From contig NZZF01000001.1 of assembly GCA_002702385.1 (NCBI GenBank), positions 1 through 20,182 on the forward strand: DNA of 20,182 nt, written 5' to 3'. The DNA comes from Flavobacteriaceae bacterium (GTDB lineage: Bacteria; Bacteroidota; Bacteroidia; Flavobacteriales; Flavobacteriaceae). Of the stretch, positions 5,056-13,728 are shown piece after piece. The translations under genes were made by a program, and so were the position numbers. The notes beneath the pieces were generated by a model that saw only the letters and a list, made by a program, of their open reading frames with translations, made no database searches and had not been told where the DNA came from. The first letter of the stretch is position 1; every line of letters begins with the position of its first letter.

Positions 5056-5874
5056 ATGGAAAAACTACAAAAACTTGGACTCCCTATTTTAGTTGGAGGA
5101 TTAATATTATTCATATTTCTTGCAAAAACATTTGTAAATATTGGATATGGAGAAGCAGGTGTCTTATTTAAGACATTTGGTAATGGTGTTGTTACTGATG
5201 AACCACCATTAGGCGAAGGATTAAATTTAGTAATGCCTTGGAATAAAGTATACATTTATAATGTAAAACAACAAGAAGTGTTTGAAAGTAAAATGCAGGT
5301 TTTATCCTCAAATGGTCTAGATATATCACTTGATATTTCTGTGCTATATCAGCCTAAAATTGCTGAACTTGGTTTATTACATCAAACAAAAGGTTCAAAC
5401 TATCTTAATGTCGTAATTATTCCGTCACTAAGGGCAGTTGCTAGAAGTGTAGTTGGTCAATATACTCCTGAACAGTTATACTCAACAAAAAGAGATGCTA
5501 TTCAAAATGAAATATATGAGCAGTTAGTTTCTGATGTAGATGCTCAACATGTTCAGATTAATTCAGTTCTAGTAAGAGATGTAACTCTTCCTGCAAATAT
5601 TAAAGCAGCTATTGAAAGAAAATTAACTCAAGAGCAAGAAGCCTTAGAATATGTATTTAGATTAGAGAAAGCTAGACAAGAAGCTGAAAAATTAAGAATT
5701 GATGCTGAAGGTAAAGCTAATGCTAACAGAATATTAAATAGTTCATTAACATCAAATATTTTAAAGGATAAAGGAATTGAAGCTACTTTGAAGCTTTCTG
5801 AATCTCCGAATACTAAAACAGTAATTATTGGATCAGGAAGTGATGGCTTACCAATTATTTTAGGAAATCAGTAA
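5056..5874 (+). CDS. Membrane-anchored SPFH/prohibitin-family protein
   Basis: This 272-residue protein resembles the prohibitin branch of the SPFH (stomatin/prohibitin/flotillin/HflK) superfamily. A single hydrophobic helix (residues ~7-29, GLPILVGGLILFIFLAK) anchors it. The SPFH domain follows (~31-190), with GEAGVLFKTFG, a proline-rich PPLGEGLNLVMPW and the repeated ISLDISVLYQ strand. The terminal part (~185-225) is a charged, heptad-like helix rich in EA/EK/QE that would form the coiled coil used for ring assembly. Family members form large membrane-associated rings and can regulate FtsH-type AAA proteases; nothing in this window shows a protease partner, so that role is only inferred. 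It sits 13 bases after fabG and is probably the last gene of the lpx unit. The next 45 bases are A/T-rich and carry no convincing terminator. Confidence 0.88.
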   Translation: MEKLQKLGLPILVGGLILFIFLAKTFVNIGYGEAGVLFKTFGNGVVTDEPPLGEGLNLVMPWNKVYIYNVKQQEVFESKMQVLSSNGLDISLDISVLYQPKIAELGLLHQTKGSNYLNVVIIPSLRAVARSVVGQYTPEQLYSTKRDAIQNEIYEQLVSDVDAQHVQINSVLVRDVTLPANIKAAIERKLTQEQEALEYVFRLEKARQEAEKLRIDAEGKANANRILNSSLTSNILKDKGIEATLKLSESPNTKTVIIGSGSDGLPIILGNQ

Positions 5875-5903
5875 TATTTATTTTTAAAATAAAAAAAAAG
5901 TAA

Positions 5904-5911
5904 GATATTTG
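5904..5911 (+). promoter_or_regulatory. Candidate -7 promoter box of the his operon
   Basis: GATATTTG matches seven of eight positions of the Bacteroidetes -7 consensus TAnnTTTG (counting n as matches; the first T is G). It lies 8 bases before the leader-peptide ATG, so transcription would begin at or within a few bases of that codon. No TTTG-type -33 box is visible at the expected spacing in the A-rich stretch upstream. Weak evidence on its own; supported mainly by the need for a promoter just ahead of the attenuator. Confidence 0.35.
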
Positions 5912-5919
5912 TAAAAGCA

Positions 5920-5979
5920 ATGATAAATCGTATTCATAATCATCATTTAAACATATATATTCTCAAGCGAGATATGTGA
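5920..5979 (+). CDS. hisL: his operon leader peptide, 19 codons
   Basis: The reading frame ATG...TGA encodes MINRIHNHHLNIYILKRDM. Three of the four codons at 5935-5946 are His (CAT AAT CAT CAT), well above random expectation for a 19-codon frame placed just upstream of hisG. The stop TGA (5977-5979) falls inside the 3' arm of the protector hairpin, as in classical amino-acid leader peptides. The peptide itself has no expected function; its translation rate senses charged tRNA-His. There is no Shine-Dalgarno sequence, only A-rich sequence (gtaaaagca), which is normal for this phylum. Too short for standard ORF callers. Confidence 0.8.
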   Translation: MINRIHNHHLNIYILKRDM

Positions 5980-6033
5980 TGATTATATACTTAATTATAA
6001 CAAACCCGTTTGAGTAATCAAACGGGTTTTTTT
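5936..6033 (+). promoter_or_regulatory. Transcription attenuator of the his operon
   Basis: Three mutually exclusive helices can be drawn by hand. (1) Protector: 5936-5946, which includes the His codons, pairs with 5976-5986 in an 11-bp helix (one G-U). It encloses a small inner hairpin, 5961-5964 with 5969-5972. (2) Antiterminator: 5962-5969 (CTCAAGCG) pairs with 6007-6014 (CGTTTGAG), 8 bp with one G-U. (3) Terminator: 6002-6012 with 6019-6029. Helix 2 takes up half of the terminator's 5' arm. A ribosome stalled at the His codons covers 5936-5946 and breaks helix 1, freeing 5962-5969 for helix 2, so transcription continues into hisG. A ribosome reaching the TGA masks 5962-5969, and with no translation helix 1 forms; in both cases the terminator folds. 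This is the logic of the enteric his attenuator, worked out here from base pairing alone. Confidence 0.78.
6002..6033 (+). terminator. Intrinsic terminator of the his attenuator
   Basis: A perfect 11-bp inverted repeat, AAACCCGTTTG (6002-6012) and CAAACGGGTTT (6019-6029), with a 6-base loop AGTAAT. It runs into seven T residues (6027-6033). It lies between the leader peptide and hisG and ends 11 bases before the hisG start, the expected position for conditional termination rather than end-of-gene termination. It is one of only two G+C-rich hairpins with T-tracts noted in the intergenic DNA of this window. Confidence 0.92.
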
Positions 6034-6044
6034 ATTTATAAATA

Positions 6045-6902
6045 ATGAAGAAAATAAATTTAGCAATTCAAAAATCAGGAAGACTCAACAAAGAATCAAT
6101 TTCACTATTGGAAAAAGCAGGTATTAAGTTTGACAACTTTAAAGATCAGTTAAAAGTTGATTGTCAAAACTTCCCTTTAAATATATATTTTTTAAGAAAT
6201 AGTGACATTCCCAGATATTTATCTGATGGAGTAGTAGATATCGCAATAATTGGTCAAAATTTAATTCAAGAAAGTGAATTAAATATTGATGAAATAATGA
6301 ATTTAAATTTTTCAAGATGTAGAGTTTCTATTGCAATTCCTTTAAATATGAAATACAGTGGACTTAAGGATTTGAATAATTTAAAAATTGCAACATCTTA
6401 TCCTAATACATTAAAAAAGTTTCTTTCAAATAATAATCTTAATTGTGAAATACATAAAATCAATGGCTCAGTTGAGATTTCTCCTAATATTGGTCTTTCT
6501 GATGCAGTATGTGATATTGTTTCTACTGGAAATACTTTGTATAAGAATAATTTAAAAGAAGTACTTACAATATTAGATTCTCAAGCAGTTTTATGCAACT
6601 CAAACAATTTTGATTTAACAAAAAAGGAGATTCTAGACAAACTTATTTTTAGAATTAATTCTGTTCTAAGAGCAAAACAATCTAAATATATTTTAATGAA
6701 TGTACCAAACGATAAAATTAAAATGGTATCAAGTCTATTACCTGTATTAAAAAGTCCAACTGTTCTTCCTCTTGAGATGGAAGGATGGTCCTCTTTACAT
6801 ACAGTTATAGATGATGATAAATTTTGGGAATCTATTGATTCAATAAAAGAAGCTGGTGCAGAAGATATCCTTGTTTGTCCAATTGAAAAAATGGTTTTAT
6901 AA
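6045..6902 (+). CDS. hisG: ATP phosphoribosyltransferase, long (regulated) form
   Basis: HisG makes the first committed step of histidine synthesis, condensing ATP with PRPP to phosphoribosyl-ATP. At 285 residues it is the long form. The bilobal catalytic part (~1-210) begins INLAIQKSGRLNK and carries the PRPP-binding region DAVCDIVSTGNTL (153-165). The C-terminal ACT-like domain (~213-285, RAKQSKYILMN to EDILVCPIEKM) is the one that binds histidine for feedback inhibition. The presence of that domain means no HisZ partner is needed. The operon therefore appears to be controlled twice: at transcription by the attenuator immediately upstream, and at enzyme level here. The ATG at 6045 is 11 bases past the terminator T-tract. 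The stop and the hisD start share one base (TAATG). Confidence 0.97.
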   Translation: MKKINLAIQKSGRLNKESISLLEKAGIKFDNFKDQLKVDCQNFPLNIYFLRNSDIPRYLSDGVVDIAIIGQNLIQESELNIDEIMNLNFSRCRVSIAIPLNMKYSGLKDLNNLKIATSYPNTLKKFLSNNNLNCEIHKINGSVEISPNIGLSDAVCDIVSTGNTLYKNNLKEVLTILDSQAVLCNSNNFDLTKKEILDKLIFRINSVLRAKQSKYILMNVPNDKIKMVSSLLPVLKSPTVLPLEMEGWSSLHTVIDDDKFWESIDSIKEAGAEDILVCPIEKMVL

Positions 6903-8182
6903 TGAATATTATAATTAATCCTAGCAAATCAAAATGGGACTCTTTAACCCAAAGACCCTACACTGAAAATAATTCTGTTGTTGATTCGGTAAAAGAAATT
7001 TTTAAAAATGTTCAAAAAAATGGAGACAAATCACTTATTGATTATACCCTAAAATTTGATAATGTTAAAATAGATAAATTAAAAGTCTCAGAAAATTTAA
7101 TTAATGATTCGGACGATAAAATATCTTCAAATCTTAAGAAAGCAATTGATTTAGCATATAATAATATTTATAAATTTCATAGCTCACAATTACAAAAGAA
7201 AAACATAATCGAAGTTCAAAAAGGGATTAATTGTTGGCAAGAAAAACGTCCTATTAATAATGTTGGACTTTATATCCCTGGTGGATCTGCTCCATTATTT
7301 TCAACAGTATTAATGTTAGGTATTCCCTCTTTAATTGCAAATTGCTCAAATCGAATACTCTGTACACCACCAAATTTTAAAAATGAGATAGCTCCTGAAA
7401 TTCTTTATGCATGTAAAGTATGCGGTATACATAATATTTTTAAAGTAGGTGGTGCACAAGCAATTGCAGCCATGACTTTTGGCACAGAATCAATTCCAAA
7501 AATTGATAAAATTTTTGGTCCAGGAAATCAATATGTTACTGAAGCTAAGAAGTATTCAATGAATTATGGTCTTTCAATAGATATGCCAGCTGGTCCTAGT
7601 GAATTATTAGTTCTTGCTGATGATTCTGCAAATCCAAAATATGTCGCATCGGATTTATTATCACAAGCTGAACATGGAATTGATAGTCAGGTAATTTTAG
7701 TAAGTAATTCAAAGGCTTTAATTGATGAAGTTTCTAAGGAAATTAAAATTCAAAAAAAAGATTTATCAAGAAAGGAAATTATTACTAAATCTCTTGAAAA
7801 TTCAAAATCAATATTATTTGATTCAATAGATGATTCGATTGATTTTATAAACGAATATGCTCCTGAACATTATATTATAAATACTTCAAATGAAGAATAT
7901 TGTATTTCTAAACTATCAAATGCTGGTTCTGTTTTTATTGGAAATTTCACCCCTGAAAGTGCAGGGGATTACGCCTCAGGAACAAACCATACTTTACCCA
8001 CAAATGGCTATGCTAAGCAATATAGTGGTGTTAATACTGATAGTTTTTTAAAAACAATCTCTTTTCAAAAAATTTCTAAATCTGGTTTAATATCAATTTC
8101 AAATGCAATTGAAACAATGGCTTTAAGTGAGGGTTTAGATGCACATAAACAAGCAGTATCAATTAGAATCAATGAAAATTAA
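6902..8182 (+). CDS. hisD: Histidinol dehydrogenase
   Basis: HisD performs the last two steps of the pathway, the NAD-dependent four-electron oxidation of L-histidinol to L-histidine, as a zinc homodimer. The 426-residue length is normal. Metal ligands are visible as Q255 and H258 (LLSQAEHGIDSQ), D356 (ESAGDYASGTNHTLPT) and H415 near the C-terminus (EGLDAHKQAV). The catalytic Glu-His pair is E322/H323 (APEHYIINT). VGLYIPGGSAPLFSTVLML and KVGGAQAIAAMTFGT are family signatures of the NAD and substrate region, and IFGPGNQYV is the second glycine-rich element. It overlaps hisG by one base and hisC by 11 bases. Confidence 0.98.
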   Translation: MNIIINPSKSKWDSLTQRPYTENNSVVDSVKEIFKNVQKNGDKSLIDYTLKFDNVKIDKLKVSENLINDSDDKISSNLKKAIDLAYNNIYKFHSSQLQKKNIIEVQKGINCWQEKRPINNVGLYIPGGSAPLFSTVLMLGIPSLIANCSNRILCTPPNFKNEIAPEILYACKVCGIHNIFKVGGAQAIAAMTFGTESIPKIDKIFGPGNQYVTEAKKYSMNYGLSIDMPAGPSELLVLADDSANPKYVASDLLSQAEHGIDSQVILVSNSKALIDEVSKEIKIQKKDLSRKEIITKSLENSKSILFDSIDDSIDFINEYAPEHYIINTSNEEYCISKLSNAGSVFIGNFTPESAGDYASGTNHTLPTNGYAKQYSGVNTDSFLKTISFQKISKSGLISISNAIETMALSEGLDAHKQAVSIRINEN

Positions 8183-9200
8183 AGATTTAGTAAGAAAAAA
8201 TATTGAGGAATTAACTCCATACTCCTCTGCAAGGGATGAATTTAAGTCCACTAGTGATTTTATTTACTTAGATGCAAATGAAAGTTCTTATGACAATAAA
8301 TTAAATAGATATCCTGATAACAGGCATATTCAATTAAATAAATTGATTTCCTCTTTTAAAAATGTAAATACAAATAATTTAATTCTATGTAATGGAACAG
8401 ACGAGTTAATTGATCTAGTGATTAGAGTTTTTTGTAATCCAGGTTTAGATAAAATAATTACATTAAATCCCACATATGGAATGTATGATATTTCCTCGAG
8501 AATTAATGATGTTGAAAATATAAAAATTGATTTAGATATAAACTTTCAAATTGATATTAATAAGGTATTATCAAGTTTTGATTCAAATACTAAAGTTATT
8601 TTTATTACAAATCCAAATAACCCTACTGGAAATTCCTTAAGTAATGAAGCAATTATTAAAATTATAGAATCATTTAAAGGAATTGTTTTTATAGACGAAG
8701 CTTATGTTGATTATTCCAATATATCTTTTTTAAAAAAAATAAATTCATATAATAATTTAATAGTTAGTCAAACCTTTTCTAAAGCTCTTGGACTTGCAGG
8801 TATCAGACTTGGTGTAGGCTACTCAAATCCAGAAATAATTTCCTATTTAAAAAAGATTAAACCACCATATAATATTAATTCTTTAACAGAGAAAAAGGCA
8901 ATTGAATCTCTTATGAGGGAATATGTTAATATTGATCAGGTTAATGAAACAATATATGAAAGAAAGTTCCTAGAGTTAAAATTAAAGGAATTAGCTTTTG
9001 TTAAAGTTGTATTTCCTTCAAACTCAAACTTTCTTTTGATTAAAGTAGATGATGCTGATAAAAGATACAAACAGCTTATTGATTATGGTATAGTGGTCAG
9101 AAATAGATCAAATGTTAAAGGTTGTGAAAATTGTTTACGGGTTACTGTAGGAACTCCCCAGCAGAATAAAATTTTAATAAATACTCTCAAAAAAATATGA
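8172..9200 (+). CDS. hisC: Histidinol-phosphate aminotransferase
   Basis: HisC is the PLP-dependent fold-type I aminotransferase that converts imidazole acetol-phosphate to histidinol phosphate with glutamate as donor. I take the ATG at 8172 as the start (342 aa; MKIKDLVRKNIEELTPYSSA). An in-frame ATG 33 bases upstream at 8139 would add 11 residues that do not belong to the family, and would lie deep in hisD. The Schiff-base lysine is K204 in SQTFSKALGLAGIRLG, with R212 nearby. LDANES (34-39), NPNNPTG (147-153) and FIDEAYVDY (173-181) are standard HisC motifs, and the substrate-phosphate Arg lies in CLRVTVGTPQQN at the C-terminus. The stop and the hisB start overlap as ATGA. Confidence 0.96.
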   Translation: MKIKDLVRKNIEELTPYSSARDEFKSTSDFIYLDANESSYDNKLNRYPDNRHIQLNKLISSFKNVNTNNLILCNGTDELIDLVIRVFCNPGLDKIITLNPTYGMYDISSRINDVENIKIDLDINFQIDINKVLSSFDSNTKVIFITNPNNPTGNSLSNEAIIKIIESFKGIVFIDEAYVDYSNISFLKKINSYNNLIVSQTFSKALGLAGIRLGVGYSNPEIISYLKKIKPPYNINSLTEKKAIESLMREYVNIDQVNETIYERKFLELKLKELAFVKVVFPSNSNFLLIKVDDADKRYKQLIDYGIVVRNRSNVKGCENCLRVTVGTPQQNKILINTLKKI

Positions 9201-10297
9201 AAAAAATAATTTTTTTAGATCGCGATGGAACAATTGTATTTGAACCTAAGATAGATAAACAGTTAGATAGTTTCGATAAGCTTTCTTTTATACCTGGTGT
9301 TTTCAAATATCTCGAAAAAATCAATAATGAACTCGGTTATGATTTGGTTTTAGTTACAAACCAAGATGGGTTGGGAACAGACTCATTTCCACAAGATACT
9401 TTTTGGCCAGTTCAAAACTTTATAATTGACTCATTAAGTAACGAGAACATAAGTTTTTTAGATATTTTAATTGATAACAGCTTTGAAGAGCAGAATCTTC
9501 CAACTAGAAAACCTGGTTTAGGACTAGTAACAAAATATATTAACGATACTACAATTGATTTAAAATCATCATTTGTAATAGGGGATAGGGAAACAGATTT
9601 AATTTTTGCTAATAATATTGGTTGCAACTCAATTTATTTTTCAGAATCTCAGTCTAAAATTGAAAATTCTGAAACTATTTCAAGTTGGAAAAATATTTAT
9701 GAGTATTTGAAGGGCTTAGAAAGAAAATCAGAATTTACAAGAAACACCAAAGAAACAAAAATTAAATTATCATTGAATTTAGATGGATCTGGAGAAAGTA
9801 ATATAAATACAGGTCTTTCTTTTTTTGATCATATGTTAGATCAGTTATCAAAGCATGCCCTAATAGATATAGATTTAACTGTTGATGGGGATTTAAATGT
9901 AGATGAACATCATACTATTGAAGATACAGGGATTTTATTGGGAGAAGCATTTAATTCACTTTTGTCTAATAAAGTTGGTATTAATAGGTATGGTTTTGTT
10001 CTACCTATGGACGATTGTTTAGCACAATGTGCTATTGATTTTGGAGGAAGAAATTGGATTGAATGGGATGCTGATTTTAAAAGAGAAAAAATTGGAGATA
10101 TGCCTACTGAAATGTTTTTCCATTTTTTTAAATCATTTTCAGATTCTGCAAAAGCAAACATAAATATAAAAGGAATTGGAAATAACGAACATCACAAAAT
10201 TGAATCAATTTTTAAAGCCTTTGCTAAGTCAATTAAATCAGCAATAATGAAGGATGAATCAAATATGGTTCTCCCAACAACAAAAGGAATTATATAA
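9197..10297 (+). CDS. hisB: Bifunctional histidinol-phosphatase / imidazoleglycerol-phosphate dehydratase
   Basis: A 366-residue fusion with two steps of the pathway. Residues ~1-170 are a HAD-family histidinol-phosphate phosphatase: nucleophile and acid Asp at D8 and D10 (FLDRDGT), LVTNQDGLG at motif II, the basic RKPG loop at 104-107, and VIGDRETD at 127-134. Residues ~175-366 are the manganese-dependent imidazoleglycerol-phosphate dehydratase, with FFDHMLDQLSKH, DEHHTIEDTG (236-245) and EHHKIESIFKAFAK (331-344). The pairing is as in E. coli HisB, but the zinc loop of the enteric phosphatase (C-x-H-x...C-x-C before RKP) is absent; the equivalent segment reads LIDNSFEEQNLPTRKP with no Cys or His. 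It directly abuts hisH with no gap. Confidence 0.96.
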   Translation: MKKIIFLDRDGTIVFEPKIDKQLDSFDKLSFIPGVFKYLEKINNELGYDLVLVTNQDGLGTDSFPQDTFWPVQNFIIDSLSNENISFLDILIDNSFEEQNLPTRKPGLGLVTKYINDTTIDLKSSFVIGDRETDLIFANNIGCNSIYFSESQSKIENSETISSWKNIYEYLKGLERKSEFTRNTKETKIKLSLNLDGSGESNINTGLSFFDHMLDQLSKHALIDIDLTVDGDLNVDEHHTIEDTGILLGEAFNSLLSNKVGINRYGFVLPMDDCLAQCAIDFGGRNWIEWDADFKREKIGDMPTEMFFHFFKSFSDSAKANINIKGIGNNEHHKIESIFKAFAKSIKSAIMKDESNMVLPTTKGII

Positions 10298-10885
10298 ATG
10301 AATGTTGCAATTGTAGATTACGGTGTAGGTAATATAAAAAGTATTCAACATAGCTTGGATAGAATTGGAGTGAATCATGTTTATACAATGAATCCAGAGA
10401 TAATCTTTTCTGCAGAGAAAGTTATTTTTCCTGGAGTAGGAGATGCTTCTTATGCAATGAAAAAATTAAAGAATAATAATTTAGATAAGCTAATCCCAAA
10501 TTTAAAACAACCATTACTTGGAATATGTTTAGGAATGCAACTTATGTGTACATATTCGGAAGAAGGAGATACATCATGCTTAGGAATCATTGATGCTGAG
10601 GTAAAAAAATTTAATTCGAAGAAGAATAAAATACCTCAAATTGGGTGGAATAATATAAAAAACTTAAAAACTAATTTGTTTAAAGGGATATATGAAAATG
10701 AGTTTATGTACATGGTACATACATATTATGTTCCAAAATCACGATTCACAATCTCTGAAAGTGTATATGGCTTAACTTACTCTTCAGCAATCAATAAAGA
10801 TAATTTTTATGGAACACAATTTCACCCTGAAAAGAGTGGATTAATAGGTGAAAAAATAATCAAAAATTTTATTAATGAATTATGA
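10298..10885 (+). CDS. hisH: Imidazole glycerol phosphate synthase, glutamine amidotransferase subunit
   Basis: HisH hydrolyses glutamine and channels ammonia to HisF in the IGP synthase heterodimer. It is a 195-residue class I amidotransferase. The catalytic triad is complete: nucleophile C77 in GICLGMQLM, and H176 and E178 in GTQFHPEKSG. The N-terminus MNVAIVDYGVGNIKS and the oxyanion-region PGVGDASYAM match the family. It starts one base after the hisB stop and overlaps hisA through ATGA. hisA lies between it and its partner hisF. Confidence 0.97.
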   Translation: MNVAIVDYGVGNIKSIQHSLDRIGVNHVYTMNPEIIFSAEKVIFPGVGDASYAMKKLKNNNLDKLIPNLKQPLLGICLGMQLMCTYSEEGDTSCLGIIDAEVKKFNSKKNKIPQIGWNNIKNLKTNLFKGIYENEFMYMVHTYYVPKSRFTISESVYGLTYSSAINKDNFYGTQFHPEKSGLIGEKIIKNFINEL

Positions 10886-11604
10886 AAATTATTCCTGCAA
10901 TAGACATATATGAAGGTAAGTGTGTAAGATTATTAAAAGGCGATTATAATCTTAAAAAAGAATACTCATCTAATCCATTACTTGTTGCTAAGGAATTTGA
11001 AAATAATGGTGCTACCAATTTACATGTTGTAGATTTAGAAGGAGCTAAATCTAATACTATTATCAATATAGGTGTTCTACGAGAAATATGTTCAAACACA
11101 AACTTAAAAGTTGATTTTGGTGGTGGTATCAAGACTAGAGACGACATTTCCTTAGCTTTTGATTTAGGAGTAAATCAAATAACATTAGGCAGTGTAGCTG
11201 TAACAAATAAAGACTTGCTAATAGATTCTTTAAATGTTTATGGAAAAGATAAAATAATATTAGGAGCAGATTTTTTAGATAATGTCATTAAAATAAATGG
11301 ATGGAAGACAACAACCGAACATAATTTATTTGATTTTATTAATGAATACTATAGTTATGGAATTAAATATGCAATTATAACAGATATTTCAAAAGATGGT
11401 GCAATGCAAGGCTCTTCCGTTGAAATATATTCAAAAATAATTGAGAAATTTCCTGATTTGAATCTCATTGCTAGTGGGGGAGTGACATATGAAAATGATT
11501 TAAATAAATTAAAACATATAGGATGTTATGGAGCTATAATGGGAAAGGCTTTGTATGAGAAAAGAATAGATTTAAAAAATATGATTAAACAATATGGTAG
11601 CTAA
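10882..11604 (+). CDS. hisA: ProFAR isomerase HisA
   Basis: HisA carries out the Amadori isomerisation of ProFAR to PRFAR on a (beta/alpha)8 barrel. The 240-residue length is standard. The general-base D8 is in [16 protein letters not shown]130 is at the end of the fourth strand (ILGADF), and D168 is in [12 protein letters not shown]. Phosphate-binding glycines are DFGGGIKT in the N-terminal half and ASGGV in the C-terminal half. The sequence is clearly paralogous to HisF, the next gene. It overlaps hisF by 11 bases in the form ATGGTAGCTAA. Confidence 0.97.
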
Positions 11605-12349
11605 AAGAATAATTCCTTGCTTAGATATTGACAATAACAGAACTGTTAAAGGTGTTAATTTTCTTAATTTAATTGATGCTGGTGATCCTGTAGAATTAGC
11701 AAAATTATACTCAAATGAAGGTGCTGACGAATTGGTTTTTCTTGATATTACTGCTACAAAAGATAAAAGAAAAACATTATCCAGTCTAGCTCATGAAATT
11801 TCAAAAAACATAAACATTCCATTTACAGTTGGAGGAGGAATTAGTTCTATTGATGATGTTTCATCTTTACTTTTTAGTGGAGCTGATAAAATATCAATTA
11901 ATACACAAGCATATAGGACTCCTAAACTAATAAACCAAATTTCATCAAGATATGGAAGTCAATGTGTTGTTGTTGCTATAGATGCTAAGTTAATTAATGA
12001 CTGTTGGTATGTTCATCTTGTTGGTGGAAGAGAAAAAACAAGTACAAAGTTAATAGATTGGGCACTTGAAGTTCAAGAGAGAGGAGCGGGTGAGATTTTA
12101 TTTACTTCCATGAATAATGATGGAACTAAAAATGGATTTGCAAATGAAATTCTTTCAAATTTATCTAAAAAGTTAACTATTCCAATTATTGCCTCTGGGG
12201 GTGCAGGAAAAGTACAAGATTTTATTGATGTATTTAATGTTGGAAATGCAGATGCGGCTTTAGCTGCAAGTGTATTCCATTTTAAAGAAATTGAAATAAA
12301 ATTGTTAAAAGAAGAACTAAAACAAAATAATATAAAAGTCAGAACATGA
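11594..12349 (+). CDS. hisF: Imidazole glycerol phosphate synthase, cyclase subunit
   Basis: HisF is the cyclase half of IGP synthase. It uses ammonia from HisH to convert PRFAR to imidazole glycerol phosphate and AICAR. The barrel of 251 residues has both catalytic aspartates: D11 in [16 protein letters not shown] and D130 in VVVAIDAKL. Other signatures are [33 protein letters not shown] and [13 protein letters not shown]. It has a long overlap with hisA upstream and an ATGA overlap with hisIE, so both partners of the channel complex come from the same message. Confidence 0.98.
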
Positions 12350-12936
12350 ATTTAGATTTTAATAAAAATAAAGATGGTTTGATTCCAGCAATAATTCAGG
12401 ACAGTATCACTAAAAACATATTAATGCTTGGCTACATGAACCAAGAAGCAGTAGATTTAACTATTTCATCCAAAAAAGTACACTTTTTTAGTAGATCAAA
12501 AAATAGAATTTGGATGAAGGGTGAAGTAAGTGGTAACATTTTAACGCTTGAATCATTTAAAGTTGATTGTGATAACGATTCAATATTAATTAAAGCTATT
12601 CCCAGAGGTCCTACTTGTCATAAAGGCGATGATACTTGCTGGGGAGAAAATAATGAAAAATATTTTTTAAATAAATTAGAAGAAATTATAGAGGATAGAA
12701 TATCAAATCCTAAATCAAACAGTTACATTTCTAATTTATTTGATAATGATATTGATAAAATTGCACAAAAGGTAGGAGAGGAGGCTACTGAACTGGTCAT
12801 TGCTTCAAAAAATTCAGATAAAAAAGAGTTTATTTATGAATCTGCCGATTTATTTTTTCATTTTTTATTAATCCTTCAAAAAAGAGGATTAAAATTTAAT
12901 GATGTCATAAATGAATTAAGAACTAGACATAAATAA
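12346..12936 (+). CDS. hisIE: Bifunctional phosphoribosyl-AMP cyclohydrolase / phosphoribosyl-ATP pyrophosphatase
   Basis: A 196-residue fusion that performs steps two and three. HisI, the cyclohydrolase (~1-105), has [29 protein letters not shown] and [10 protein letters not shown], with magnesium Asp at 74, 76 and 78, plus the zinc cysteines C75, C91 and C98 ([12 protein letters not shown]). HisE, the pyrophosphohydrolase (~106-196), is an all-helical MazG-like domain with [14 protein letters not shown] and [13 protein letters not shown]. It closes the his gene set, so the window carries a complete pathway from PRPP to histidine: G, I, E, A, H, F, B, C and D activities are all present. No terminator separates it from the next gene 35 bases on. 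Confidence 0.97.
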
Positions 12937-12971: not shown

Positions 12972-13679
12972 ATGAAAAAAATAATATTATTATTCGTTTT
13001 GCTTACATCATTTAACCTGTCTGCTCAAGATAAGGCTTATTGGATGTGCTATAATTTTTCTGTTGATAATCAAACAGATGCTAAAGAATTAGTAGATGCA
13101 GTTGACATGCTCATGAATGCTGAGGAAATGTCTATGATGCCATTTACTGTTTTTTTATTTGAAATTGAGTTTGCAAGCTCAGAAAATGATTTTACTCATC
13201 AATTATGCTTTCTTGCTGAAAATGCGGATTATTTAAAGGGTTGGGGCCAAGGTCCAGGTGAGTTTGCTGAAAGTATGTATTTAGGCAAAGTTTTTGAATC
13301 AGTAGCTACACCAGTCGCTAGTGTATTAGCTTCTCCTATTATTTTTGATCCTTCAAAGGCTGGTTATGAATATTCTAATGTTTGGAGTATTAAAGTTACA
13401 GATGTGCCAAAATTTGCAAGTTTAGCAGCAGAATTTATTGAAGCAAATTCTGATAATTTTGATGGAACAATTGAACTTCACGAAGCTATTAGTGGTGCTG
13501 AAAGTGGTGTAACACATTATATGGTTGCCAGATCAAATAATCTTGGAGATTGGTTAAGAGGAAGAGAAGCTGTTTTTGCTAATCCAAAATCACAACCATG
13601 GTTTAATAATTCAAACAAATATTCTGAATTTCTTGATTCATTTGCTGGAAGAACAATCAAAGTATATTCTCCTGAATAA
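12972..13679 (+). CDS. Secreted protein of unknown function with internal duplication
   Basis: I do not recognise this 235-residue protein. The first 19 residues (MKKIILLFVLLTSFNLSAQ) form a clear signal peptide with likely cleavage after SAQ, so it is periplasmic or outside the cell. The mature part appears to contain two related halves. FTHQLCFLAENADYLKG (74-90) aligns with VTHYMVARSNNLGDWLRG (180-197), sharing T-H, an N and a D-aromatic-L-basic-G ending, each preceded by a helix-like stretch. This suggests a repeated alpha/beta unit, perhaps ferredoxin-like, but no family is assigned. There is no C-terminal sorting domain and no lipobox Cys. It starts 35 bases after hisIE with no terminator between and ends 21 bases before a strong one, so it probably shares the his transcript at least in part. 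A link to histidine metabolism is not implied. Confidence 0.8.
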   Translation: MKKIILLFVLLTSFNLSAQDKAYWMCYNFSVDNQTDAKELVDAVDMLMNAEEMSMMPFTVFLFEIEFASSENDFTHQLCFLAENADYLKGWGQGPGEFAESMYLGKVFESVATPVASVLASPIIFDPSKAGYEYSNVWSIKVTDVPKFASLAAEFIEANSDNFDGTIELHEAISGAESGVTHYMVARSNNLGDWLRGREAVFANPKSQPWFNNSNKYSEFLDSFAGRTIKVYSPE

Positions 13680-13700: not shown

Positions 13701-13728
13701 AAACCCCCGAATTTTTGGGGGTTTTTTT
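13701..13728 (+). terminator. Intrinsic terminator closing the his unit
   Basis: AAACCCCC (13701-13708) pairs perfectly with GGGGGTTT (13717-13724) around an 8-base loop, and a run of seven T residues covers 13722-13728. It begins 21 bases after the stop of the secreted-protein gene. No convincing hairpin lies between hisIE and this point, so it is the likely 3' end of the his transcript. Confidence 0.93.

Follow-up and report, generated by a model that had tools for sequence, protein, structure and literature searches.

A probable ribosome-mediated his attenuator in a Flavobacteriaceae bacterium and a putative additional pairing element in many of its relatives

The his leader of E. coli is a chain of alternating stems, and the 2004 survey of Vitreschak and colleagues is said to mention Bacteroidetes/Chlorobi. 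The available passages of PMC8305728, a paper on the his genes of this superphylum, describe attenuation for enterics only, and those of PMC9413887 place attenuators in Proteobacteria and Firmicutes. The available text of PMC9723704 (2021) reports a structured 5' element of hisG in Flavobacterium psychrophilum, conserved in other Flavobacteriaceae and without an Rfam match, and, for amino acid operons as a whole, strong clues that they are attenuated through leader peptides. Since it concerns the same gene and the same bacterial family, this element almost surely belongs to the same family as the leader described here. Control at two levels is known from the vmlR leader of Bacillus subtilis, which combines transcription and translation attenuation (PMC9226507, in the part available).

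The DNA that we analyzed, called the window throughout, is a stretch of 20,182 nucleotides that carries a his operon whose genes abut or overlap. All eight operon proteins, from HisG to HisIE, scored above the cutoff of an NCBIfam model. The features considered below are the following.

5904..5911, + strand: probable promoter -7 box GATATTTG, with one mismatch to TAnnTTTG (near match; box found in relatives)
5920..5979, + strand: leader peptide ORF of 19 codons, MINRIHNHHLNIYILKRDM, stop included (sequence)
5935..5946, + strand: regulatory codons His-Asn-His-His (sequence; spacing to the antiterminator kept in relatives)
5936..5946, + strand: 5' arm of the leader hairpin P (folds; stable leader hairpin in relatives)
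5962..5969, + strand: 5' strand of the antiterminator AT, CTCAAGCG (folds, relatives, own versus swapped pairing)
5976..5986, + strand: 3' arm of P, overlapping the stop codon at 5977-5979 (folds)
6002..6013, + strand: 5' arm of the terminator T (fold, terminator scan, relatives)
6007..6014, + strand: switch strand CGTTTGAG, which is the 3' strand of AT and overlaps the 5' arm of T (folds, relatives)
6018..6036, + strand: 3' arm of T (6018-6029) and T tract (sequence, terminator scan)
6045..6902, + strand: hisG, ATP phosphoribosyltransferase (TIGR00070, 181.1 bits, cutoff 75.75)
6902..12936, + strand: hisD, hisC, hisB (bifunctional), hisH, hisA, hisF and hisIE (NCBIfam matches above cutoff)

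As listed, the hisC ORF and the end of hisD overlap (8139-8182), and hisC may truly start at an inner ATG at 8172 (MKIKDLVRKN). Another strong hairpin that resembles a terminator and has a T tract is found at 13701-13724, 3' of the ORF (12972-13679) that comes after the his operon. The gene upstream of the leader (5056-5874) had no NCBIfam match at E 1e-10, and the opposite strand of 5880-6060 holds only three short mechanical ORFs of 20 to 23 codons.

An earlier note, made from the DNA sequence alone, had read the region before hisG as a complete his attenuator, and sequence and folds confirmed the leader, P, AT and T where it had placed them. The terminator is present as it had said, with 12 pairs (6002-6013/6018-6029) instead of 11 (6002-6012/6019-6029); the hairpin has a loop of 4, is followed by a T tract in the terminator scan and lies 15 nt from the hisG start. 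P consists of 11 pairs (5936-5946/5976-5986), and the His codons of the leader are at 5935-5937, 5941-5943 and 5944-5946. AT consists of 8 pairs (5962-5969/6007-6014), one of them G-U. The three helices had been called mutually exclusive, which holds for AT and T, as they have bases in common, and not for P and AT, which have none. The 5' strand of AT sits within P and is partly paired there in the unconstrained fold (5962-5964/5969-5971). Since P encloses this strand, its exclusion of AT would be topological, and the two helices may also coexist as a pseudoknot. The fold of 5910-6035 has a z score of -5.43, none of 200 dinucleotide shuffles being equally stable. Of 5,000 mononucleotide shuffles, 71 yielded a helix scoring like AT, and 20 yielded one that matched P. 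The pattern CTCARRCG-N20-50-CGTYTGAG has a single occurrence in the 1.19-Mb assembly to which the window belongs, namely, the window site.

We conclude that the locus is very probably a cis-acting, ribosome-mediated and histidine-responsive transcription attenuator of the his operon. It has a His-rich ORF before the operon, an intrinsic terminator between this ORF and hisG, and a covarying AT on a terminator strand, in an arrangement where stalling would free AT and a ribosome at the stop codon would mask it. On the other side, P fails an ungapped test in most relatives, the -7 box of the window has a mismatch, and the region has no Rfam match at gathering. Neither His_leader (RF00514, enteric hisL) nor T-box was among 40 weak Rfam matches up to E 5.

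In the mechanism that we propose, RNA polymerase would start a few bases ahead of the leader ORF, giving a nearly leaderless ATG at which a ribosome would initiate. When charged tRNA-His is scarce, the ribosome would halt at codons 6 to 9, covering the 5' arm of P and leaving CTCAAGCG free. The free strand would pair with the emerging CGTTTGAG, the terminator would come too late, and the polymerase would continue into hisG. When histidine is ample, the ribosome would reach the stop codon and cover CTCAAGCG, so that T would form and transcription would end. The leader, the helices, their spacing and the selection on the RNA come from sequence and comparison; we infer the transcription start, the stalling, the termination efficiency and the histidine response.

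The region was then folded stage by stage with the footprints of E. coli ribosomes. In the stalled states, the mask covered the 5' part and stood for a ribosome whose A site holds His codon 6, 8 or 9; in the stop state, it covered 5959-5989 and stood for a ribosome on the stop codon. The mean pair probability of AT was 0.99 to 1.00 at RNA ends 6014 to 6022 in all three stalled states, and it was 0 with the ribosome at the stop codon. These constrained states, whose folding the earlier note had proposed, thus gave an AT close to 1 during stalling and absent at the stop. Its claim that the distances fit ribosome footprints is borne out by the same folds and by relatives, where 94 of the 95 loci that have a good AT keep the spacing.

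In ribosome-free nascent RNA the outcome was mixed, with probabilities of 0.33 to 0.66 for P and 0.28 to 0.63 for AT at ends 6014 to 6022. Because AT still reached 0.43 to 0.63 at ends 6014 to 6020, P is, in these models, an incomplete protector when translation is lacking. Without a ribosome, and before T emerges, P and AT are predicted to be about equally likely. As soon as the RNA reached 6029, T had a probability of 0.93 to 0.96 whatever the state. Given that T prevails in every full-length state and that folding cannot show kinetics, the models imply that the choice between AT and T must be kinetic and made before T is completed, as in known attenuators.

To compare relatives, we used the 30 of 60 related genomes in which hisG was found, plus 80 named loci kept from 289 that encode a relative. 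Of the 110 loci thus assembled, 105 extended far enough upstream (L029, L030, L039, L047 and L092 were left out) and 100 were distinct, L031 to L034 and L038 being second copies of genus loci. Under a strict test (an ATG-started ORF of 6 to 40 codons within 260 nt, in which some stretch of 7 codons holds 3 or more His), a His-rich leader ORF preceded hisG in 98 of the 100 distinct relatives, compared to 16 of 2,000 shuffles and 1 of 200 stretches inside hisG. The two misses, L040 and L104, have two His each, so that a His-containing leader ORF is found in all 100. Such an attenuator had been thought unusual for a Bacteroidetes-like genome without Shine-Dalgarno sequences, a view that the presence of a His leader ORF in 100/100 distinct relatives does not support. 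The absence of Shine-Dalgarno sequences is the normal state in flavobacteria, as stated in the available text of PMC9723704.

A terminator with a full U tract was present in 99/100 relatives, the exception being L007. The AT helix was equaled by at most 5 of 100 shuffles at 85 of 99 loci and by at most 10 at 94 of 99. When terminators were paired with the leaders of other loci, the own AT pairing beat the swapped one for 28 of 30 distinct cores. The AT motif was recognized at 79 of the 100 loci and lies in ORF frame 0, 1 or 2 at 15, 58 and 6 of them, respectively. In the window's genus, CTC AAG CG reads L-K-R, and in most Flavobacterium, TCTCAAGCG reads S-Q-A. The occurrence of the motif in all three frames argues that the RNA is under selection: the end of the peptide varies, and the RNA stays. 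Among the 95 loci with a good AT, 94 have at least 2 His codons at which a stalled ribosome would leave AT free and a stop codon at which a ribosome would cover it; L018 is the sole exception to this spacing rule. All six genus loci with upstream sequence keep the leader, AT and T despite sequence differences.

The leader hairpin is conserved in a looser form. Taken as an exact ungapped helix, P is weak in most relatives: at only 23 of 99 was it equaled by no more than 5 of 100 shuffles. What is well conserved is an imperfect but stable hairpin, with a z score below -1 in 86 of 90 distinct leaders; the leader fold has a mean energy of -16.8 kcal/mol, versus -9.1 kcal/mol when leaders were shuffled around an unchanged AT strand. 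The comparison of relatives suggested in the earlier note supported the clustered His codons, the terminator, the covariation of AT, and P as an exact helix only in those 23 of 99. The nesting of the AT strand had also been considered unusual, and it is not: this strand is enclosed by at least 8 leader-hairpin pairs (mean, 19.3) in 90/90 distinct leaders of the group. Nesting is therefore a family rule. By itself, this topology is weak evidence, since the AT strand is enclosed in shuffled leaders too (mean, 10.9 pairs), and just 33 of the 90 leaders beat nine-tenths of their own shuffles on enclosing pairs. The attenuator reading itself stands, as the three helices, their order and their spacing to the His codons and the stop codon are present in the window and kept in relatives.

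In 77 of 100 relatives, a box matching TAnnTTTG occurs in the 60 nt that precede the leader ATG, versus 0 of 100 control stretches inside hisG. In the available text of PMC9723704, the -7 box is positioned at -12 to -5, which predicts a transcription start near 5916, so that the 5' untranslated region (UTR) would probably be about 4 nt long. The same text gives 5.5% leaderless mRNAs for F. psychrophilum. A sigma-70 scan gave 103 sites versus 115 expected and is useless in this phylum.

The same hairpin could be read in other ways. If the leader acted chiefly on translation, T would hide the hisG initiation region and AT would open it. This fits with T ending 15 nt before the ATG, with the predicted opening of 6025-6060 when T was prevented in the fold (mean unpaired probability, 0.65 instead of 0.46), and with L007, which keeps the leader, AT and switch strand without a T tract. 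However, the change at the ATG proper was small (0.10 to 0.21), L007 is one assembly, and the U tract of T is complete in the window and in 99/100 relatives, so that we consider this explanation highly improbable. Still less probable, in our view, is that the hairpin is a plain terminator of the upstream gene (5056-5874) with an incidental leader ORF. The hairpin is downstream of this gene on the same strand, but 127 nt past its stop codon; moreover, a plain terminator would need no AT strand, and leader, AT and T accompany hisG in 99/100 relatives. The least probable reading is an unresponsive relic in a genome of reduced size: although the genus assembly is about 1.2 Mb and P is weak in some relatives, leader, AT and T persist, with sequence differences, at 6/6 genus loci with upstream sequence. 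Transcription attenuation in response to histidine is hence the reading that we retain.

We then looked more broadly, at 40 more stretches taken from the 103 hisG-bearing genomes in a phylum-wide draw of 118. With GTG and TTG starts permitted, unlike in the ATG-only strict test, at least 3 His in 7 codons were found in 10/10 loci of the same family, 12/12 of the same class and 11/18 that share the phylum only. A terminator was present in 10, 6 and 7 of these loci, respectively, and AT was within 5% of shuffles in 7/10, 5/6 and 5/7. Own AT beat swapped AT at 12 of 13 class and phylum loci, and the distant AT sequences are wholly different (e.g., GGGTAAGC/GCTTACCC and AGCCGGG/CCCGGCT). Leaders of a similar kind therefore extend to other families in the class and the phylum. 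A His-rich ORF without a recognizable terminator precedes hisG at L125, L126, L129 to L132, L142 to L144 and L147, all from other families of the class and phylum.

Other amino acid operons of the window's own genome have leaders as well. On contig C3 (L272, reverse complement), a Phe-rich leader, MNKGYNTKFYFYFYYLSIKRIFC, is followed by a terminator right before the prephenate dehydratase gene; Phe-rich leaders were found at 27 of 30 related pheA loci. On contig C9 (L273 and L225, reverse complement), a Trp leader, MNNRFKFWWHFMKFRLLSL, is followed by a terminator 10 nt before trpE. The trp leader of the genus pairs with the 3' arm of its terminator (CCTGTCGC/GCGACAGG), and the his leader pairs with the 5' arm.

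In many relatives, a stretch past the terminator, here called D (e.g., TGTACTCAAAC), pairs with the switch strand (GTTTGAGTACA), here the 5' arm and loop of the terminator, and usually lies 14 to 32 nt before hisG. At the 81 loci that offer 35 nt or more past T, the D helix was equaled by at most 5 of 100 shuffles in 63 and had at least 8 pairs in 64. The own D pairing beat the swapped one for 30/30 distinct cores. For a covariation test, D was placed by the terminator arm alone, and the next 4 loop bases were then scored; 85 of 109 loci qualified, with an arm match in 76 of these. D and the terminator loop agreed in 145 of 192 pairs (48 distinct combinations) against a permutation mean of 105 (standard deviation [SD], 5.3), and with one row per loop type, in 56 of 76 against 34.8 (SD, 4.1); none of 5,000 permutations was as high in either case. 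On a hisG tree, D was counted as present at 68 of 95 loci, and the switch sequence underwent at least 17 changes among these 68; D was placed there by best match and thus with a bias toward pairing. D as a DNA operator is disfavored, as its letters covary instead of staying fixed. In the window's genus, D is absent, the gap from T to hisG being 11 to 15 nt at 6/6 loci.

D often matches the hisG start too (ATGAGTAAA or ATGAGTACA). Over 69 distinct UTRs, the predicted openness of the first 6 hisG bases was 0.26 in the own sequence, 0.44 with D masked and 0.38 in shuffled UTRs, and the accessibility of the start codon was at or below 10% of own shuffles in only 13 of the 69. L056 and similar species show strong pairing between D and the start through other letters. 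At L008, L011, L013, L018 and L028, D pairs little with the hisG start, and at L013 and L018 it still matches the loop and not the start. Upstream of hisG at L007, the His leader, AT, switch strand and D are kept, the terminator hairpin has no T tract, and all 12 D bases were paired with the switch strand in the fold; this locus is possibly a natural switch to translation control. In other operons, no D helix of more than 6 pairs was found among the phe leaders (27 of 30 loci) or the trp leaders (16 of 30), and nothing clear was seen at the thr loci (18 of 30) or the ilv loci (15 of 30), the thr match being too deep within the gene.

We propose that D could signal to the hisG start codon which state the switch strand is in. 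We advance tentatively, and with somewhat more doubt than belief, that the his leader of many Flavobacteriales works at two levels, with a D that pairs with the switch strand and often with the hisG start, and that the window's genus no longer has D, retaining a short form in which T is next to the start codon. A stalled ribosome would then keep T open, and D could leave the start codon for the switch strand. If D works so, one RNA strand would couple termination and translation start in an amino acid operon.

Compared to known systems, the window resembles the enteric his attenuator in its His-rich leader, its terminator and antiterminator before hisG, and its stall logic. It differs from it by having no match to Rfam His_leader, no Shine-Dalgarno sequence and a probable 5' UTR of 4 nt, and unlike the stem chain of E. 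coli, it has one leader hairpin that encloses the AT strand. The His leaders of some Firmicutes in the available text of PMC9413887 and PMC2965389 likewise have a peptide with His codons, a terminator and an antiterminator, and they belong to another phylum, with other sequences than those of the window. The vmlR leader, as presented in the part of PMC9226507 available, is a precedent for two-level control in one leader, as proposed for D; unlike the his leader, it senses antibiotics and not an amino acid, and its sequence is unrelated. Our searches of the open-license literature turned up no account of D or of how the hisG leader is built in this phylum. For the hisG element of PMC9723704, the available passages give no anatomy, ribosome spacing, covariation or D, in contrast to the present analysis, by which a flagged and unexplained flavobacterial element would become a defined mechanism with testable bases. 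Leader-peptide control of his would also be common in a phylum that lacks Shine-Dalgarno sequences and where stalling and initiation are little studied, and the natural variants (three frames, a lost terminator tract, presence or absence of D) offer material for testing how the position of the ribosome is read. Overall, the kind of switch is known and the element of this family was flagged earlier; its anatomy, its breadth and D appear, within the literature searched, to be new.
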